Origin: an uncultured Deefgea sp.
GTDB taxonomy: Bacteria; Pseudomonadota; Gammaproteobacteria; Burkholderiales; Chitinibacteraceae
Reading direction: 5' to 3'
DNA: 57,317 nt
Assembly: GCF_947072475.1 (NCBI RefSeq)
Contig: NZ_CAMTIA010000018.1
Coordinates: 1 to 57,317 of the forward strand
Shown here: positions 2,955 to 27,500 of the stretch, piece after piece
Layout: each line of letters begins with the position of its first letter
How positions within the stretch are numbered: the stretch's first letter is position 1
Notes under the pieces: generated by a model
Seen by the model: the letters and a program-made list of their open reading frames with translations, nothing else
The model's database searches: none
Told to the model about the DNA's origin: nothing
Position numbers and translations under genes: made by a program

Positions 2955-3145
2955 GAGCAAATTTTACCAGTGAGCAAAAGGGGATCATTCTAACCGAAGC
3001 AATTCACTCACGAAACCGACTTATTCCATTCAAAGCATGAAATCTTGGTATTTTTGATGCGGATGGGATTTTATTTGCCGCAATTTACTGCTTTGTATGT
3101 AAGTATTTGTAACAAATGTTAAAGAAGTTGCAAATGCCATTGAGC

Positions 3146-8026: not shown

Positions 8027-9121
8027 TTAGTTTGGCCAGATGGCCCCTAAAATACGAGGGCCTTGCGCGCCGGTGACTGCTGGCAAATTGGCGCTCTGCC
8101 CGTTAATGCAACGTTCGGCCAGCCATGCAAAAGCAAAAGCTTCAACCCAATCGGGGTGGATGCCAACGCTGGCGGTGCTGCTGACCGGGCAGGGGAGTTG
8201 CTCGGCCAGTAAACGCATTAGTTGCTGATTGTGCGCGCCGCCACCACACACCAATGTTTCATCGGGCTGACCTTGGCTTAAGATAGCTTGGCTGATGCTG
8301 TTGGCGGTCAATGCACATAAAGTCGCTTGCACGTCAGCAGGCTTGTCGTTTCGACCTGCCAAATACTGACCCAACCAGGCTTGATGAAATAAGTCGCGGC
8401 CGGTGCTTTTAGGCGCGCTAAGGGCAAAAAATGGTTCGTTAAGCATGCGCGTCAGTAAATCGGGCAAGATTTGACCGCTGGCGGCCCAAGCACCATCGGC
8501 ATCGTAATGCGCGCCGCCATGCTGATGAATCCACAAATCCATTAATACATTGCCCGGGCCACTATCAAAGCCAGTGATGTGCTGGTTTGGACCTAGCCAA
8601 CTTAAATTGGCAATGCCACCAATATTGAGGATCACTCGATTGTGGTCTGGACTGGCAAATAAAGCGTGATGAAAAGCCGGCACCAACGGCGCACCTTGCC
8701 CGCCCGCAGCGACATCGCGAGATCGAAAATCACCGACCACGGTGATGCCAGTATGTTCCGCCAGCAAAGCATGGTTGCCGATTTGTAGCGTATACCCCAA
8801 CTCGGGTCGATGACGAATGGTTTGTCCGTGATTGCCAATCGCCCGAATGTCACTGGCTTGGTACGGTGTAGTTTGCAGTAAAGCTTTGACCACCTCGGCA
8901 CACGCTAAGCTGTGCGCGTTGGCGGCCAGTTGCGCCAAATGAATTTCATCGTGCGCAGGACTTTGCAATTGCAATAATTGCGCCCGCAGTGCCGAGGGCA
9001 ATGGCGCACCCAAACTAGCCAACAGTTGCGGTGGGCTGGACGCCATATCCACTAAGACGGCATCAATGCCGTCCAAGCTGGTTCCTGTCATAAGCCCAAT
9101 GTAAAGGTGACGCTGCGCCAT
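8027..9121 (-). CDS. anmK: Anhydro-N-acetylmuramic acid kinase
   Basis: A 364-residue sugar kinase of the AnmK family. The N-terminal 'IGLMTGTSLDGIDAV' is the hallmark nucleotide-binding and substrate region, followed by 'GDFRSRDVAAGGQGAPLVPAFH' and 'CGGGAHN' near residue 293. It converts 1,6-anhydro-N-acetylmuramic acid, a peptidoglycan turnover product, to MurNAc-6-phosphate. It starts 16 bases after the M23 endopeptidase gene, and the pair makes sense as a wall remodelling and recycling unit. Confidence 0.95.
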   Translation of the reverse strand: MAQRHLYIGLMTGTSLDGIDAVLVDMASSPPQLLASLGAPLPSALRAQLLQLQSPAHDEIHLAQLAANAHSLACAEVVKALLQTTPYQASDIRAIGNHGQTIRHRPELGYTLQIGNHALLAEHTGITVVGDFRSRDVAAGGQGAPLVPAFHHALFASPDHNRVILNIGGIANLSWLGPNQHITGFDSGPGNVLMDLWIHQHGGAHYDADGAWAASGQILPDLLTRMLNEPFFALSAPKSTGRDLFHQAWLGQYLAGRNDKPADVQATLCALTANSISQAILSQGQPDETLVCGGGAHNQQLMRLLAEQLPCPVSSTASVGIHPDWVEAFAFAWLAERCINGQSANLPAVTGAQGPRILGAIWPN

Positions 9122-9137: not shown

Positions 9138-10472
9138 TTAATCCAATTTGGCCAATTCTACCTTGCTCAGTAGCGCCAGTTGTTGCTTTGTGCGCAAGAC
9201 ATGCGGTTTAAATTGGGCCAATTGCGTGGCATTGAGGGGTTTGCTATTGGGTAGTTTTAAGGTTAATGGATTGACCTGCGTGCCTTTGACCTTGAATTCA
9301 TAATGCAAATGCGGCCCCGTTACGCGGCCAGTGCGGCCCACTGCGCCAATTACGTCGCCTTTTTTAATGCTTTGTCCGGCTTTTAAACCTTTGGCAAAAG
9401 CCGATAAATGCGCGTACAGCGTACTGTATTGGTCGCCATGCTTGATTTCAATAAACTTGCCGTAACCACCGTCTTGTGTGACTCGACTCACTACACCATC
9501 GGCCGCGCTATACACCGGGGTACCTGTCGGCGCGGCGTAATCAACGCCTTTGTGCGACTTCCATTTAAATAATACTGGATGAAAGCGACGGGAGAATCCT
9601 GAGCTAATACGAGAAAACTTGACTGGGTTGGCTAAAAAACTTTGTCCCGAAGTTTCGCCATTTTGATCAAAATAAGCGCCTTCAATGCCCGCGCCCGCAA
9701 ACCAAAAGACCTCGTGCGTTTGGCCGTTATTGGTAAATTGCGCGGCTAAAATTCGACCGGTGCGTAAATCTTCGCCGCCGCTTTTTTCAACCTCATAAAT
9801 GACCGAAAAATGATCGCCAGCTTTCAGGTTGTTGTGAAAGTCAACTTTTTGATCGAAAGCCTCAATCAGTTGCTGCGCAATTTCATCGGGCAAGCCAATG
9901 GCATCGGTCGCCCCGTAAAAAGAGCTGCTGATGGTGCCAGATTTTTGCTGCGTATATTTCTCTGCCACTGCCGGTGCAATTTGAGTGCGCAGTTGCTCGC
10001 CATCTCGAATCACTTGGATTAATTCACCGGCTTTGTTGAGATAACTCATTTGCACCAAGCGCCCGTCGGGCGTGGTTTGGGCGCGAATTAAGCGGCCAGC
10101 CGACAATTCATACAGCACGCGGGCGGCGGGGTCGGTGCGGATAAAATCCCAAGCTTGGCTGTCGCTAATCGATAGTTTGTTGAATAACTTGCCTAGCCCG
10201 TCACCGGTCTGAATGATTTCTTCGCGCCAAAATGGCGTATCGCTCTGTACTGAAATGATGTTGGGAGTAATTAGTTGTTGCGTGACTTGGCGCACATTGA
10301 CCGGCTCGCTTGGGCCGTATTCAACCACGCCGTAGGCGGTCACCATCAAGCTAAGGGGTAAAAACACGGCTGCTGTCAACCATGCTAAATGTCTTTTTTG
10401 CCAAGATGCTTGCGTCGAAAGCGCACTAGTGGCGCGCACCTTGGTGAATGATTGCGGTAAAATCCGTTGCAT
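9138..10472 (-). CDS. M23 family murein endopeptidase (MepM-like)
   Basis: A 444-residue envelope protein. One N-terminal membrane segment (about residues 30-48) anchors it. A central OapA/LysM-like region around residues 75-200 precedes a C-terminal M23 peptidase domain with zinc ligands in 'SHKGVDYAAPTGTPV' and 'HLHYEF'. Such enzymes cut peptide cross-links in peptidoglycan to allow growth. It heads the M23-anmK pair on the minus strand; tyrS lies further upstream, an arrangement frequent in betaproteobacteria. Conserved metal residues are intact, so it should be active. Confidence 0.9.
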   Translation of the reverse strand: MQRILPQSFTKVRATSALSTQASWQKRHLAWLTAAVFLPLSLMVTAYGVVEYGPSEPVNVRQVTQQLITPNIISVQSDTPFWREEIIQTGDGLGKLFNKLSISDSQAWDFIRTDPAARVLYELSAGRLIRAQTTPDGRLVQMSYLNKAGELIQVIRDGEQLRTQIAPAVAEKYTQQKSGTISSSFYGATDAIGLPDEIAQQLIEAFDQKVDFHNNLKAGDHFSVIYEVEKSGGEDLRTGRILAAQFTNNGQTHEVFWFAGAGIEGAYFDQNGETSGQSFLANPVKFSRISSGFSRRFHPVLFKWKSHKGVDYAAPTGTPVYSAADGVVSRVTQDGGYGKFIEIKHGDQYSTLYAHLSAFAKGLKAGQSIKKGDVIGAVGRTGRVTGPHLHYEFKVKGTQVNPLTLKLPNSKPLNATQLAQFKPHVLRTKQQLALLSKVELAKLD

Positions 10473-18876: not shown

Positions 18877-19371
18877 TCATGTTTTTAACAGAGTAGCTAC
18901 TGATGTTCGCATAATGTATATTATGTAAAGTAAAGTAACCATCCAGCCAAAAACACCCCAAAATACACCCCCCACACTTGTGAGCACGGTTTTTGAAGCG
19001 TAAATCAGCGGGTTTAGACCGTTTTCGGCAACTGCATGTAAGCTTTGAGGGGCGATTGTTCCCCACATCCCGCCAATGAGCACTAGCACCACAATCAGCT
19101 TTTTGAAGTGCTCATTATAAAAATTTTGCCAGAAGTTCCTTTTGGCTTCGTTCTTCTCGCGCTCAAGTTCTGAGATTGCGATTACTTCCATTGGATTCAT
19201 TCCCAAGATCGTCGCCACCTTGCAGGCGCACCAGTTGTCCATCTGGCGTTTTCCTGTCCGGTAGTGACTAACTGCGGCGGTTGACGTTTCCAACGCCTTT
19301 GCTAATGCGTAATCGCTTTCAATGCCTAGTGCAGCTTTGCACTTCTGCATCAGCGTTTGCGTTGTTTCCAT
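18877..19371 (-). CDS. Membrane-anchored HTH phage repressor spanning the left att site
   Basis: A 164-residue protein. Residues about 10-65 form a helix-turn-helix ('YALAKALETSTAAVSHYRTGKRQM') of the Cro/C1 or DUF3693 type. Two hydrophobic segments follow (about 92-108 and 130-152). The position, divergent from the early phage genes over three palindromic operator sites, makes it the prophage repressor by inference. The dif-like core 18904-18931 encodes 'LYIIYIMRT', so the last residues come from host DNA. In the circular phage the frame would read on from 'LLYI' into a different 19-residue tail, MVLMYRTLAKVVYKPKPCI. The repressor tail is therefore predicted to change on integration. Confidence 0.75.
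   Translation of the reverse strand: METTQTLMQKCKAALGIESDYALAKALETSTAAVSHYRTGKRQMDNWCACKVATILGMNPMEVIAISELEREKNEAKRNFWQNFYNEHFKKLIVVLVLIGGMWGTIAPQSLHAVAENGLNPLIYASKTVLTSVGGVFWGVFGWMVTLLYIIYIMRTSVATLLKT
18904..18931. other. dif-like XerC/XerD site, left prophage junction (attL)
   Basis: XerC arm TGTTCGCATAA, centre TGTATA, XerD arm TTATGTAAAGT. The GCATAATGTATATTATGT core is identical to the E. coli dif core. dif resolves chromosome dimers and marks the terminus region. The site is repeated in diverged form at 26635-26662, which delimits the prophage. It also lies inside the 3' end of the repressor gene. Confidence 0.85.
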
Positions 19372-19382
19372 ATTTATTCTCA

Positions 19383-19485
19383 GTGTTAGATTTTTGTTTT
19401 GTTTAGTTTAACCGTCTATCCAGTGCTTGACATTGACTAACAGATGTTACATAGTCGCCCCAATAGCTAACAAGTGTTAGCTATT
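19383..19485. promoter_or_regulatory. Operator array CTAACA-N2-TGTTAG
   Basis: Two full copies, CTAACA-GA-TGTTAC (19437-19450) and CTAACA-AG-TGTTAG (19466-19479), and one half site GTGTTAG (19383-19389). The second copy is the centre of a perfect 24-base palindrome at 19462-19485. They lie between the divergent repressor gene and early genes, as expected for the repressor's own binding sites. Confidence 0.65.
19427..19455 (+). promoter_or_regulatory. Early phage promoter
   Basis: A perfect -35 TTGACA (19427-19432) and, 17 bases later, a -10 CATAGT (19450-19455) point rightward to the early genes. A TAACA-GA-TGTTA palindrome (19438-19449) fills the spacer, and a larger one lies over the start point, so repressor binding would block RNA polymerase. 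Confidence 0.65.
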
Positions 19486-20100: not shown

Positions 20101-20427
20101 ATGCTAATGATGGTAACTGGTGCACGCCGTGGCTATGGCACTTCTAAAGCTGGCAAGCCTTTCGATATGAGCCAGATTTTTGTGCAAACGGCGCTGGCTG
20201 ATGCTGATTATGCGACCTCAAAACAAGAGGGCTTTGGTTTTGAGCAAACAGCTTTAGATTGCGTTCAATCTTTGCTGCAAAAAATGAAGCTGGCACAGCT
20301 CAAATTGCCGGCATTGCTAGAGCTTGAAATTGGCCACGAATTGCGGTTCGGCAAAATGCAAAGTCTTGTTGTTGATTACAAGTTAGTTGCAAATCCATCT
20401 ACTGGCGAGCTTCACGCTAAAAATTAA
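20101..20427 (+). CDS. Probable phage single-stranded DNA-binding protein (position-based)
   Basis: A 108-residue soluble protein, ATG 20101 behind an AAGGA ribosome-binding site. The place next to Rep and the size match the gene V type single-stranded DNA-binding protein that coats filamentous phage genomes. The 'TGARRGYGTSKAGKPFDMSQIFV' start with basic and aromatic residues and the repeated beta-prone pattern are compatible with an OB-like fold. No direct family match could be made by eye, so the function is inference. Confidence 0.5.
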   Translation: MLMMVTGARRGYGTSKAGKPFDMSQIFVQTALADADYATSKQEGFGFEQTALDCVQSLLQKMKLAQLKLPALLELEIGHELRFGKMQSLVVDYKLVANPSTGELHAKN

Positions 20428-20443
20428 GGCGGCATGTCACACA

Positions 20444-21589
20444 ATGATTGATTGGCTAACCCTCAAACTCGATAGATCGCTTGTACCGCAAGCGGTTTAT
20501 GACCGAGCGAAGAATCAAAACGGAATGGTGATGTGTATTACCCCTATTCCGCTGGATTCGCCTTGGTTGGACGGCGAAACGCTCGTTCATTCTGATGGTT
20601 CGTTAGACACGTCAACTTCTACGTACTCGGCGAATCACCGCACTGTGGTTAATGGTGACGGTGTGGTGATTTTTCGCGGCGTTGTGACTTGGGAAAAAAT
20701 CAGCAGGGAGTCGATTGGCTCGGATAGTCATCGGCTGGTTGTTGAGCCTGCCCCGCATGCGCTTTGGATCTACGGCAGCCCTGCCCGTGTATCTGAATTA
20801 AATAACGTTTTTGGCAAAGAATGTATTCGAGAGTGTGCGCTGGACATGATTAAGTTTGCAGCAAAACATCTCGAATGTATTTTACCTACGCGCCTTGAAT
20901 CTTGGGACGTAACCCGCGCCGACATTACGCAAAATTACGATTTAGGCTCTGCCGCTGAAGTCCGGCAAGCGCTGTCTTATCTTCGCCAGTCTGAAGGCGG
21001 ACGACTTCAAGTTAACACCAAAAGCGAAACGATTTATTGGGGTGCAAATTCAAGCCTACGCAAACTGAAGGCGTATCACAAAGGCCCTCATCTACAGAAG
21101 CAAGTTAAAAAAAATGAGGCTCAAGCTTCGCACGAAGAATTAGAGCTATCAAATCGACTACTACGCCTAGAACTCACACTGGCCAACCAATTTTGGCGCG
21201 AACGCTCAGCAAAGCCTTGGTTCGATTATGAACCGCACGAATTAGAGCAAATGCACCAGCACTATTTTGGTCAGGTTATCGGCAAAATGGAGATTACCGA
21301 AATGGAAGACATCCGCACGCCATTGATTGAAGCCGCTAACCGATTGGGCTTTTCCGATGGTCTTGGCCTTGCTGCTTATCGCACTTGGTGCCTGATTAAG
21401 TCCATGGGCTTTCGAGAGGCCGAAGATACATTGAGCCGCTCAACACTGACCCGCCATAAGGCGATCATGTTTGAAGCTGGCTTTACTTATGCCGACTTCC
21501 ACGCGCAAAACATTATCCCGTTCCGTCGTCGCACGATTGAATTGGGCTCGGCTGTGACTTCATGGGATGACATGAGACAGGCTGCATGA
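20444..21589 (+). CDS. Phage replication initiation protein, gene II/X family
   Basis: A 381-residue rolling-circle Rep. The start 'MIDWLTLKLD' and the central 'RLESWDVTRADITQNYDLGSAAEVRQAL' with 'LLRLELTLANQFWRERSAKPW' downstream match the gene II/X family of filamentous phages, in which a catalytic tyrosine nicks the plus strand origin. The nick site should lie in the noncoding region 26044-26634. ATG 20444 is used; AAGG about 15 bases upstream is a poor ribosome-binding site. Internal initiation could give an X-like C-terminal product. It overlaps the next gene by 4 bases. Confidence 0.85.
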   Translation: MIDWLTLKLDRSLVPQAVYDRAKNQNGMVMCITPIPLDSPWLDGETLVHSDGSLDTSTSTYSANHRTVVNGDGVVIFRGVVTWEKISRESIGSDSHRLVVEPAPHALWIYGSPARVSELNNVFGKECIRECALDMIKFAAKHLECILPTRLESWDVTRADITQNYDLGSAAEVRQALSYLRQSEGGRLQVNTKSETIYWGANSSLRKLKAYHKGPHLQKQVKKNEAQASHEELELSNRLLRLELTLANQFWRERSAKPWFDYEPHELEQMHQHYFGQVIGKMEITEMEDIRTPLIEAANRLGFSDGLGLAAYRTWCLIKSMGFREAEDTLSRSTLTRHKAIMFEAGFTYADFHAQNIIPFRRRTIELGSAVTSWDDMRQAA

Positions 21590-24147: not shown

Positions 24148-25293
24148 ATGTTAAACATGATTTTAGGTCAGCCAGGTGGCGGCAAGAGTTATGAAGCCGT
24201 GGCTTTTCATATTCTGCCAACGCTAGAAGATGGCCGAAAAGTCATTACAAACCTTCCTTTAAATCTTGAAGCTTTTTATGGTGCGGTGCCCGAATCTCGC
24301 AAGCTCTTAGAAATTCGTACTAAAACCAAAGCAGAGAAAGGCCATTGCTTTGCTGTTCGCGCTGATTTTGAGGACGATTGGCGCTGTCCTGAAACTGGTC
24401 GCGGCGCTTTATTTGTCATTGATGAATGCCACAAGATGTTCCCGCGTATCGGTTGCGATAAAGACGTACTAGAATTTTTTGCTGAACACCGTCACGCGGG
24501 GATTGATATTATTTTGGTGACTCAAGCTTATGGCAAGATTCATAGCGATATCCGCGACATGGTGCAAATGGTCTACCGCGTTAAAAAGATGATGGCCTTT
24601 GGCAAGTCAGATCGCTACATCAGAAAAGTACAAGATGGCATTCGCGGTGAAGTTATGAGCACTAGCGAACGTGATTATGAATCTAAGTATTTTCAGTTTT
24701 ATAAAAGTCATACCGCTTCGGCCACTGCGGTGATTGAGTCCGACGCAAAAGATATTAACCCAGCATTTAAAAAATGGTTTATTGGCTCCATTGCTTTTAT
24801 CGTTCTGCCGTTGCTGTTTATTGGGTATAAAGCTTACGCCATGTATTCAAACGATACGGCGGTAACTCAGTCAGATGGGGAGGGGCCCCCGCTTGCGGGG
24901 AGGGCTCCCGATTTGACTTATGTTACGCCGCCCTATGTTCCGTCCGCATCTTCTGTCGTTGCTGAGTTGTCACCAGAAGAACCTGCTAAGCCAGAAGCAG
25001 AGATAGCAAGCGAACCCAAAGACCACCCTTTTAAAAGCCTTAATTTACATTTGCAAGGTGTTATGACCTCCGGTGCGCGTACTTTAATGACTTTTATAGT
25101 TACACAAAATGAACGCCCGATTAATCAAATTTCTAGCGACGAATTGATTAAAGCCGGTTATCAAGTTACCTATGTTTCTGATTGTGTCGCTAAGCTGCAA
25201 TATGAAGGCATTGACCCGTTTTTCGTCGTATGTAGCTTGCCCAGTGCTGCCCCAGTCCCTCGAAACGACTCTTTAGGACAATCCCGTGTTTAA
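24148..25293 (+). CDS. zot: Zot-family phage morphogenesis ATPase (pI-like)
   Basis: A 381-residue protein. The N-terminal ATPase has Walker A 'GQPGGGKS' and a Walker B-like 'ALFVIDECHKMFP'; one membrane segment follows at about residues 210-228 and a periplasmic domain completes it. Zot/pI proteins drive extrusion of filamentous virions through the envelope. With no pIV secretin in the prophage, a host secretin must form the outer pore. The periplasmic linker contains a short GC-rich insert (24877-24909) that stands out from the A/T-rich surroundings. It overlaps the next gene by 8 bases. Confidence 0.9.
   Translation: MLNMILGQPGGGKSYEAVAFHILPTLEDGRKVITNLPLNLEAFYGAVPESRKLLEIRTKTKAEKGHCFAVRADFEDDWRCPETGRGALFVIDECHKMFPRIGCDKDVLEFFAEHRHAGIDIILVTQAYGKIHSDIRDMVQMVYRVKKMMAFGKSDRYIRKVQDGIRGEVMSTSERDYESKYFQFYKSHTASATAVIESDAKDINPAFKKWFIGSIAFIVLPLLFIGYKAYAMYSNDTAVTQSDGEGPPLAGRAPDLTYVTPPYVPSASSVVAELSPEEPAKPEAEIASEPKDHPFKSLNLHLQGVMTSGARTLMTFIVTQNERPINQISSDELIKAGYQVTYVSDCVAKLQYEGIDPFFVVCSLPSAAPVPRNDSLGQSRV
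24877..24909. repeat. GC-rich hairpin inside zot
   Basis: CCCCGC-TT-GCGGGG (24887-24900) is enclosed by GGGAG/CTCCC. It encodes part of the linker after the membrane helix ('GEGPPLAGRAP'). In an A/T-rich gene this compact, very stable hairpin suggests an inserted sequence or a structural element of single-stranded phage DNA. Its role is unknown. Confidence 0.45.
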
Positions 25294-25495: not shown

Positions 25496-25559
25496 TTAAC
25501 CTTTTCTTGGTCGCTTAAATTTACGTAAACTGCGTCAATCTATTTTTAGGTTGATGCAG

Positions 25560-25997
25560 ATGAACTACGATATGGATTCGGCGCTTTACCGTCCTGCCCC
25601 TCGCTCTAAATTCATCCCCGCCCTTTTAGTTGTTTGCTTGCTCTGTTCTTCGTTGCTGCTTTGGGCTTACTTTTCCGGTCGATTGCCGCATTACACAATA
25701 ATGGTTCGAGGCAACACCCTTGAGCTTGTTCGTGACGACCCTGCGCATTTGTCTGCCACTCTGCCCGCTCCTGTAGTTGCTGATGACCCTCAGGATTTAT
25801 TTGTCTCGTCGCACCCTGAAGAGACTTATATTGAACGGGATGCCACGCTTTCATTTAAAGGTTTGCCAGCTCAAGAAGTTAAGGCCCCAAACCCAAACCA
25901 GATTTATAAATGCAAAACGGCTGCTGGCTCTGTTGTGTATCAGCAGCAAGACTGCATTTCGACAGGTCATTCTCTTGTTGAGGTTTTATTTAATTGA
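25560..25997 (+). CDS. Membrane-anchored DUF4124-like phage accessory protein
   Basis: A 145-residue protein with one N-terminal membrane helix (about residues 18-38), then a periplasmic part ending in 'IYKCKTAAGSVVYQQQDC', a pattern typical of DUF4124 modules. The start MNYDMDS and 'GRLPHYTIMVRGNTLELVRDD' resemble the chromosomal protein at 26778-27500 (MNYTDD, 'GVLPHYTFLIDDNKIEFIRDD'). ATG 25560 is chosen because it matches that homologue and has an AGG nine bases upstream. Not a standard inovirus gene; probably cargo. Confidence 0.7.
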   Translation: MNYDMDSALYRPAPRSKFIPALLVVCLLCSSLLLWAYFSGRLPHYTIMVRGNTLELVRDDPAHLSATLPAPVVADDPQDLFVSSHPEETYIERDATLSFKGLPAQEVKAPNPNQIYKCKTAAGSVVYQQQDCISTGHSLVEVLFN

Positions 25998-26043: not shown

Positions 26044-26634
26044 TTTATTGCAGTTGTCGCAGCAAGGCGAAGCCGCCGCGATCGCGACGGTTTTGCTTTT
26101 GACGTTGCTTTTGAATTTGGAAGCCAAGAAGAATTAACGACGTTTAAAGGGCCGCACTGCATGGTGTTCGGCCTATGAAAAACGAATCTGTCCGCGCTGG
26201 TCTCGCCGGAGACCAGTAGCAACCACCACCCTGTAAAAAAAGAACGCCACGTAAAGCAACAAAAATGCCCCTCTGCGTTCGCTGCCCTCACCGCTTCGCA
26301 AATGATTACCGCACCCTAAAAACCGGTTTTAACTCTGTCTGAGTCCTCCTTGTTTGTCTTTGATTCTTACAAAACCAAGCGAGAAAGGTTTTAGAAAGAA
26401 TCTGTATAAAATCACAAATCTCAAAAAGAACTCCGAAATGTGGGGGTGTGCAGTAATACCCCCACTTTGGCTCATGGGTGAGCCACGACCCCAATTTATG
26501 TCCACAATGGCTCACGGGTTTTTACCAATTCTTACAGACTGTGCTTTAATACCACTTCACCGCTGATTTAATGGGTATATTTCCACAAGCCTTTAAATAC
26601 AAGGCTTTGGCTTGTACACCACTTTGGCTAGCGT
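26044..26634. other. Hairpin-rich noncoding region, probable phage origin and packaging signal
   Basis: About 590 bases with no supportable gene. Hairpins include CTGGTCTC/GAGACCAG (26196-26215), AAAACC/GGTTTT (26319-26330), GTGGGGGT/ACCCCCAC (26440-26465) and TGGCTCA/TGAGCCA (26468-26485), followed by a second GGCTCACGGG. In filamentous phages the region after gene I holds the plus and minus strand origins and the packaging hairpin, so those roles are inferred here. Confidence 0.6.
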
Positions 26635-26662
26635 CCTGTACATAAGAACCATTATGTAAAGT
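26635..26662. other. dif-like site, right prophage junction (attR)
   Basis: Arms CCTGTACATAA and TTATGTAAAGT around GAACCA. The right arm is identical to that of the left dif site, and the identity extends outward for several more bases: 26651-26670 matches 18920-18939 at 19 of 20 positions. The left arm is less dif-like and presumably comes from the phage. Confidence 0.78.
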
Positions 26663-26777
26663 AAAATAACTGTATTGACTCAAGCCGGTGCCAGTATTGG
26701 GTTTGCTGTGTTTTGGCGTGTATTCCTTTGTTGGTATGTCCCGAGGTCTCGCTCACTCAATCCCCTGCTCGTGCAAA

Positions 26778-27500
26778 TTAAGCATTAAAACAATCGTCAT
26801 GCCAGATTTTGCTGAGTCGATTGTATTGGTCGCGCAAATATTGGGTTGAGTTCACTCGTTGCTGCACGCGGATGCGCTCACGTTCGGATTCAATGTTTTT
26901 GCAGTACGGCGAGTCGCGCTTGGATTCGTTGTTGATTCGTGCAATCGCCGGGCTGTAGGTTTCTGGCGATGAGCTGACTGCGTTGGTTTGGAATGCGTCG
27001 GCTCTAGAATGCTGCAATTCAGGTTGGCTTAAGACCTTGACCGGCGTTAGGCCGTTGTCTACACAATGACTGGTTTGATAAACAACCCGGCCTTCGGCGG
27101 AAAGGCATTTCACTATTTGAGTTGAGTTTGCTGTTTCTGACTGGTAGCCGTTGGTCACTATTGTGTGATCAGATGGATCCGCGTGCTGAATTTCCAATGT
27201 CGAGCCTGAGTCTGGTGTATTTTCAGCATAAGCGTTTAAGGCTTGGCGATTGGCGGCGATGACTTTACGGTTGGCGTCATCAATTGCTTCTCCCTTTTGC
27301 GCTTGCTCGGCCAAATATTTGACGTCGTCACGAATGAACTCAATCTTATTGTCGTCGATTAAGAAAGTGTAATGCGGTAAAACGCCCGCGCGATAGGCGC
27401 CAAAAAGCGCAGCGCTCAATATGCAGAAAAACACAACCATCGGTAAGATTCGATTGGGTTTGACTGGCTCATTACCCATTCTGTCGTCGGTGTAGTTCAT
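26778..27500 (-). CDS. Membrane-anchored protein combining both phage accessory modules
   Basis: A 240-residue protein lying just outside the right prophage end. After MNYTDD and a membrane helix (about 20-40) come 'LPHYTFLIDDNKIEFIRDD', a linker, a DUF4124-like 'IVKCLSAEGRVVYQTSHC' and a C-terminal 'YCKNIESERERIRVQQRVNSTQYLRDQYNRLS'. The first two blocks resemble the phage protein at 25560-25997 and the last one that at 25286-25495. It may be a host gene copied by the phage, or a remnant of an earlier phage. Function unknown; periplasmic by topology. Confidence 0.75.
   Translation of the reverse strand: MNYTDDRMGNEPVKPNRILPMVVFFCILSAALFGAYRAGVLPHYTFLIDDNKIEFIRDDVKYLAEQAQKGEAIDDANRKVIAANRQALNAYAENTPDSGSTLEIQHADPSDHTIVTNGYQSETANSTQIVKCLSAEGRVVYQTSHCVDNGLTPVKVLSQPELQHSRADAFQTNAVSSSPETYSPAIARINNESKRDSPYCKNIESERERIRVQQRVNSTQYLRDQYNRLSKIWHDDCFNA

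Follow-up and report, generated by a model that had tools for sequence, protein, structure and literature searches.

A phage whose attachment site lies inside the coding sequence of its own repressor raises the question of what becomes of this protein when the phage passes from the free circle to the host chromosome. The question is posed here by a filamentous prophage of an uncultured Deefgea sp., found in the 57,317-nucleotide stretch of DNA that was analysed (the window), which is one complete contig (C18) of a 3.45 Mb genome. How filamentous phages settle on chronic production or on silent lysogeny is known for few systems, and a repressor whose end reports integration would amount to a switch without any additional protein, operating through the site at which the host resolves chromosome dimers.

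The prophage is integrated at dif, is flanked by an aldehyde/alcohol dehydrogenase gene and a methyltransferase gene, and contains an inovirus gene set, with Phage_CRI and Zot domains and inovirus PHROGs (Table 1). Six other genomes of the genus were compared, and in five of them (G001-G005) the left and right flanks are adjacent, with an uninterrupted dif between them, and an assembly artefact at the left junction is ruled out given that the same dif is uninterrupted in these sister genomes. In G006, the sixth, a dif borders the left flank but the right flank matches 42 kb away, so that this genome does not count as an empty site. Tyrosine recombinases (PF00589) were found at ten places genome-wide and at none on the prophage contig. 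A prophage at the host dif with no tyrosine recombinase of its own by this search fits the class of dif-integrating inoviruses, and lends support to the proposal of an initial annotation of this DNA that the recombinases are probably the host XerC/XerD.

The host gene beside dif on the right side (26778-27500, minus strand) is related to the last gene of the prophage (25551-25997, plus strand; 29% identity, E 1e-20). This host gene also adjoins dif in G001 and G002, and partly in G003, all of which lack this prophage, and it may be what is left of an earlier inovirus inserted at this dif.

Table 1. Features of the prophage and of its junctions in the window (positions of the whole stretch).
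Feature	Position	Strand	Support
Repressor gene, prophage form, 164 aa, last part host-coded	18877..19371	-	PHROG 4441 E 1.5e-24, PHROG 638 E 2.4e-20
Left junction, full dif: XerC arm 18904-18914, spacer TGTATA 18915-18920, XerD arm 18921-18931	18904..18931	+	uninterrupted in sister genomes
XerD arm common to both junctions	18921..18931	+	
Promoter-like hexamers TTGACA and CATAGT, pointing to replication genes	19427..19455	+	
Two operator-like palindromes CTAACA-NN-TGTTA: 19437-19449 (between the promoter-like hexamers) and 19467-19480	19437..19480	.	
Rolling-circle replication protein	20387..21589	+	Phage_CRI E 8.6e-24
Zot-type assembly protein	24148..25293	+	Zot E 2.8e-32
Free-phage repressor tail (26596-26662) and stop (26593-26595), coding once the circle closes	26593..26662	-	
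Right junction: XerC-like arm 26635-26645, spacer GAACCA 26646-26651, XerD arm 26652-26662	26635..26662	+	

The left junction lies inside the 3' end of the repressor gene and codes for LYIIYIMRT in the repressor frame, as the initial annotation had stated, and its reading of the site as dif is likewise confirmed. That annotation had also taken the whole 28-base dif as the core, but the sole sequence common to the left and right junctions is ATTATGTAAAGTAAA[G/A]TAAC (18920-18939 versus 26651-26670; 95%). The common core is thus the XerD arm and a few bases, while the spacer and the XerC arm of the left junction are host DNA. Given that the right junction has only this much in common with the left, the crossover is placed at or within the XerD arm, and we infer a XerD-mediated exchange, as for TLCphi. 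The position of the crossover matches a XerD-first strand exchange, but the two spacers differ and may have drifted. Both are six bases long and, therefore, the frame is unchanged even if the right spacer has drifted.

The integrated reading frame has the C-terminus GWMVTLLYIIYIMRTSVATLLKT and ends LLYIIYIMRTSVATLLKT, with the residues past the XerD arm coded by the host. When the right phage end is joined on through the XerD arm, the protein of the free form ends LLYIMVLMYRTLAKVVYKPKPCI; the frame stays open through the free junction MVTLLYIMVLMYRTLAKVVYKPKPCI, and the predicted attP reading of the free circle is LYIMVLMYRTLAKVVYKPKPCI. Joining the window at the XerD arm gives MVT, while joining it at the far end of the repeat gives MVI. 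The free protein has 169 residues, so that the integrated form is only 5 residues shorter, and a tail of 18 residues with a net charge of +4 is exchanged for one of 13 residues with a net charge of +2. The swap is modest in this phage. The open frame across the circular join, the exact tail and the different ends of the two forms had all been predicted, and each is borne out by the sequence. Nonetheless, the three frames past the XerD arm run open for 7, 34 and 18 codons, the last being that of the repressor; since other frames also run open, the open free frame of the window alone is weak evidence, and the weight rests on the relatives.

The gene is oriented away from the phage operon, and a DNA-binding N-terminus is predicted through PHROG 4441 and PHROG 638. 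Hydrophobic segments lie at residues 92-108 and 135-151. The window repressor has no Pfam match at E<=1, DUF3693 included, while 5 of the 12 members of the alignment A1 match DUF3693 at E<=0.1. The palindrome CTAACA-NN-TGTTA has seven matches with at most one mismatch on both strands of the window, against 0.65 expected, and its exact copies occur only between the repressor and the phage operon, which fits their being the putative operators of this repressor. The promoter-like match (one, versus a shuffle mean of 2.1) is not above chance alone. Overall, the gene is probably the lysogeny repressor of a dif-integrating filamentous phage.

A search of related prophages for the same overlap, as the initial annotation had proposed, was strongly positive. 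Of 100 related genomes searched at the protein level 24 had matches, the own genome counted and one match (L025) falling by chance on a large membrane protein. With profiles, matches came from 41 genomes among 399 at the order level and from 8 among 369 at the class level, again with the own genome counted. The relatives include Silvimonas, Andreprevotia and Chitinimonas. Viral-contig scans (A3, and the window repressor itself) and a phage-record search (L115) gave nothing useful. The 60 distinct homologues, among them the window, Cf1c, one fragment and a number of copies from two arrays, include 34 in which the 3' end contains a strong dif core, versus 4 of 2531 other open reading frames in the stretches scanned. 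The core score covers 17 positions, one of which always counts, and a score of 15 means that no fewer than 14 of the 16 informative bases match; with 13 as the threshold the counts become 38/60 and 18/2531. The profile was made from A1, whose C-terminal columns include core residues, and matches bearing the overlap are therefore mildly favoured. Two further overlaps lie outside the core scan, one with the other half of the site (L126) and one with the core 148 bases before the stop (L127). The difference between 34/60 and 4/2531 rules out a chance overlap. Nonetheless, 7 of the 60 homologues end before a core that lies at most 60 bases downstream, so that the overlap is not required by every such phage.

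The core is read towards the XerD arm in most homologues and towards the XerC arm in Cf1c, L126 and L132; L106 and the plus-strand repressors of L098 and L114 enter by the XerD arm, like the window. Both strands of the core are used, and on the commonest strand all three frames, the coded residues being of the YIM, VYYVK and CILC types, which rules out selection on the residues coded by dif. In L098 (G033) two opposite-strand repressor genes end tail to tail in one dif core (about 8945-8962), and an opposite-strand pair likewise ends within one dif core in L114 (G007, about 9727-9744).

Core residues that are not conserved in frame or strand, together with the homologues that stop just before the core, are what would be expected if the repressor were simply the end gene of a compact genome whose stop fell by chance beyond att, leaving a tail with no role. 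The free tails argue against this. For these, 28 sequences were compiled from 8 phage records (Cf1c, phiXv2, two phiLf, SHP2, SMA6, SMA7 and Cf2; SMA6 and SMA7 are entered there as proviral genomes, and one of the phiLf entries is marked unverified) and from 20 reconstructed junctions, namely the window and 19 relatives in which a second junction was usable, the remaining prophages having none on their stretch. L083 was dropped given that its far end is masked with N, and the plus-strand repressor of L098, which is the second case with only the XerD arm common to the junctions, is not among the 28. All 28 tails extend 14-36 residues past the core with a positive net charge, and in total they contain 143 basic versus 9 acidic residues in 686. 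Read in its other frames, this DNA is less basic (Wilcoxon, 6e-6 for the two other forward frames and 2e-5 for the reverse ones), and when one tail per cluster is taken, 20 of 21 are more basic than the other forward frames on average (p 1e-4).

In four groups the frame of the core differs and the repressor still joins a homologous tail: SMA6 versus SHP2/SMA7, L103 versus L104, L105 versus L114, and phiLf from Taiwan versus Cf1c/phiXv2. Synonymous divergence exceeds non-synonymous divergence (pS > pN) in six of seven tail pairs of at least nine codons and the reverse holds in one, as a plain tally over short pairs. This suggests that the tail of the free virus is kept by selection. Tails that are open, basic and homologous despite differing core frames, and phage arms that avoid the in-frame stop of host arms (see below), make a neutral overlap very improbable. 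Conversely, it is highly probable, as judged from these sequences, that both frames and the arrangement in the relatives are as described and that selection acts on the free tail. A common amphipathic helix or degron in the tails was rejected: only 7 of the 28 tails have a helix moment above shuffles at 0.1, and no common degron or C-terminal tag was found among them, 9 ending in Ala, of which three are homologous.

Two phiLf records (L139 from Taiwan and L140 from the UK) have near-identical repressors whose tails diverge at the att core, one being Cf1c-like and the other Cf2-like. Their sequences suggest an exchange of tails between phages at attP.

On the integrated side, the frame ends in the core or in host sequence. 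No residue follows the core in 10 of 20 cases, the zero-length tails being assigned by hand from the core readings, and 2 to 43 residues follow it in the other 10. The mean net charge past the core is 0.45 for the integrated forms versus 5.15 for the free ones (p 2e-4), while per residue the difference for the 10 non-empty host tails is not clear-cut (p 0.08). In the YIM frame a TGTAA in the XerD arm is a stop. It is absent from all seven phage-borne arms (0/7) and present in the host dif arms of 16 of the 19 genomes of the family with a match (24 were searched and 5 had none), as obtained with a pattern that left only four positions free (Fisher, p 2e-4; p 1e-3 when only the five phages of that family are taken). 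Given that the phage-borne arms lack TGTAA and the host arms mostly have it, the host site supplies the stop in the YIM-frame phages. In the VYYVK frame, the phage arm does carry TGTAA in 4 of 9. For many relatives, a design in which a stop in the common arm would leave the protein unchanged on integration had seemed plausible, but it failed, given that the phage-borne arm in these cases has no stop.

Taken together, the arrangement can be read as follows. With attP positioned within the 3' end of the repressor gene, the repressor of the free circle would be translated across attP and end in a short basic tail whose codons lie at the opposite end of the phage map. Integration at dif by the host Xer recombinases would remove this tail and replace it, in many relatives by a stop in or just after the host arm and otherwise by an unrelated host-coded tail, as in the window. 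The DNA-binding part and most of the membrane parts would be the same in both forms. The basic tail would weaken repression by the free form, through degradation or a changed placement in the membrane, so that replication can start, and integration would produce the repressor of the lysogen. We favour such a switch, in which the repressor reports integration in the manner of BPs, as the whole explanation with somewhat better than even confidence.

The main rival places the effect in the operon rather than in the tail: integration would separate a second small gene from the repressor promoter, leaving one at each end of the prophage, and the tail would serve to preserve the operon. In seven of the eight free-phage records the next annotated gene overlaps the repressor stop or starts at most 3 bases away, the eighth being unannotated, and on the same strand of the circle this second gene is ORF112 (DUF3653-like) in the Xanthomonas group and codes for an HTH-like protein in Chitinibacteraceae relatives, where it lies behind the repressor in ten reconstructed circles. 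The Xanthomonas group and ten related prophages thus show the arrangement, but the window does not: only short open reading frames with no assignment lie behind its free tail. Moreover, in most of the ten circles the next start is tens of bases off, and the coupling leaves the basic charge of the tail unexplained. As an account of the pattern, it is considered unlikely.

The HTH-like protein, coded at the phage end away from the repressor, carries a motif like RDFYKxQCGLEARxGLML at its C-terminus (L105, L114, L081, L098, L103, L115, L111, L120, L127 and L108). Pfam gave weak matches only for that of L105 and none for three others tested.

Returning to the switch reported by the repressor end, the polarity of the effect is its less certain part. 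That the free tail makes for weaker repression is deduced from the behaviour of BPs and from the reported immunity of the phiRSS0 lysogen, and we hold this direction only tentatively, at slightly less than an even chance. The reverse would have the full-length free form as the better repressor or copy-number controller, weakened by integration; a basic tail could aid binding to DNA or to the membrane, and the free form is the one selected. Nonetheless, the short prophage form of BPs is described as active (PMC4557955) and the phiRSS0 lysogen is reported as immune with the cut form (PMC3816273), and this reverse polarity is regarded as improbable, even more so than the operon explanation.

In the tandem array of L098, the reverse-strand repressors end at 3118 and 10950, and the inner copy keeps a phage-coded tail while the outer one stops in the core; a tandem lysogen may, therefore, make both forms of the repressor. 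If the repressor does sense integration, tandem prophages would yield both forms, and phages would trade tails when they recombine at attP. It is possible, though with the balance just against it, that many of the inoviruses that integrate at dif in beta- and gammaproteobacteria use their repressor to sense integration, the basic tail signalling the unintegrated state and the host XerD arm often supplying the stop. Given that its tail swap is modest, the window is one member of this pattern and not its best example.

The overlap itself is already published for two inoviruses. In phiRSS0 of Ralstonia, dif lies in the 3' end of ORF13, which changes from 156 to 130 aa on integration, and Yamada proposed functionally distinct forms, with a similar direction of effect (PMC3816273); Ahmad and colleagues placed attP inside ORF12 of XacF1 (PMC4076744). 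The window resembles phiRSS0 as described in PMC3816273 and PMC4471427 in being a dif-integrating inovirus with attP/dif at the 3' end of a reverse repressor-like gene whose C-terminus changes, and differs from it in that 26 residues are truncated there while here a host tail of 13 residues takes the place of one of 18. With Cf1c, XacF1, phiXv2, phiLf and Cf2 of Xanthomonas (PMC4076744) it has in common an HTH regulator divergent from the replication genes, attP in its 3' end and a basic free tail. Like phiRSS0 and Cf1c, it has the core in the 3' end of an HTH regulator gene and predicted C-termini that differ between the free and integrated forms. However, in Cf1c, phiXv2 and phiLf the reading frame passes from the spacer to the XerC arm, and in the window it runs inwards from the XerD arm. 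ORF112, directly behind the repressor in the Cf1c/phiLf subgroup, is absent from the window, which places it outside that subgroup; nor does the window repressor match DUF3693, another trait of the subgroup.

The crossover at the XerD side of dif is shared with TLCphi, in whose class Cf1c and phiLf are listed (PMC4246890). According to this source, however, the attP of TLCphi retains its XerC arm along with the spacer, its XerD arm being degenerate, while the right junction of the window keeps the XerD arm with another spacer, and this arm is all that it shares with the host site.

The precedent offered by the initial annotation was BPs. The parallel of an attP within the repressor reading frame, with C-termini that differ between free phage and prophage, stands, but phiRSS0 ORF13 and XacF1 ORF12 had been missed and the nearest precedents are inoviruses. 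BPs is the model in which such a switch has been put to the test, and the long free form of its gp33 is described as degraded, with an ssrA-like tag (PMC4557955). BPs is a tailed mycobacteriophage that uses its own integrase and loses 33 residues with that tag, while the prophage of the window would rely on host Xer and has no recognised tag; the phage integrase next to the BPs repressor has no counterpart here by the PF00589 search.

A literature search, with most subscription journals outside its scope, found no published survey of the spread of the overlap, of selection on the tail or of stops in host XerD arms. With the present survey, two short tails and one promoter are enough to put the published idea to a direct test. 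The comparison suggests that such repressors arose both in single-stranded DNA phages that use host recombinases and in tailed phages with integrases. The window is one case of this wider, partly known pattern, and its own variant is defined by entry through the XerD arm, by the sharing of only that arm between the junctions and by the lack of a partner gene behind the repressor.
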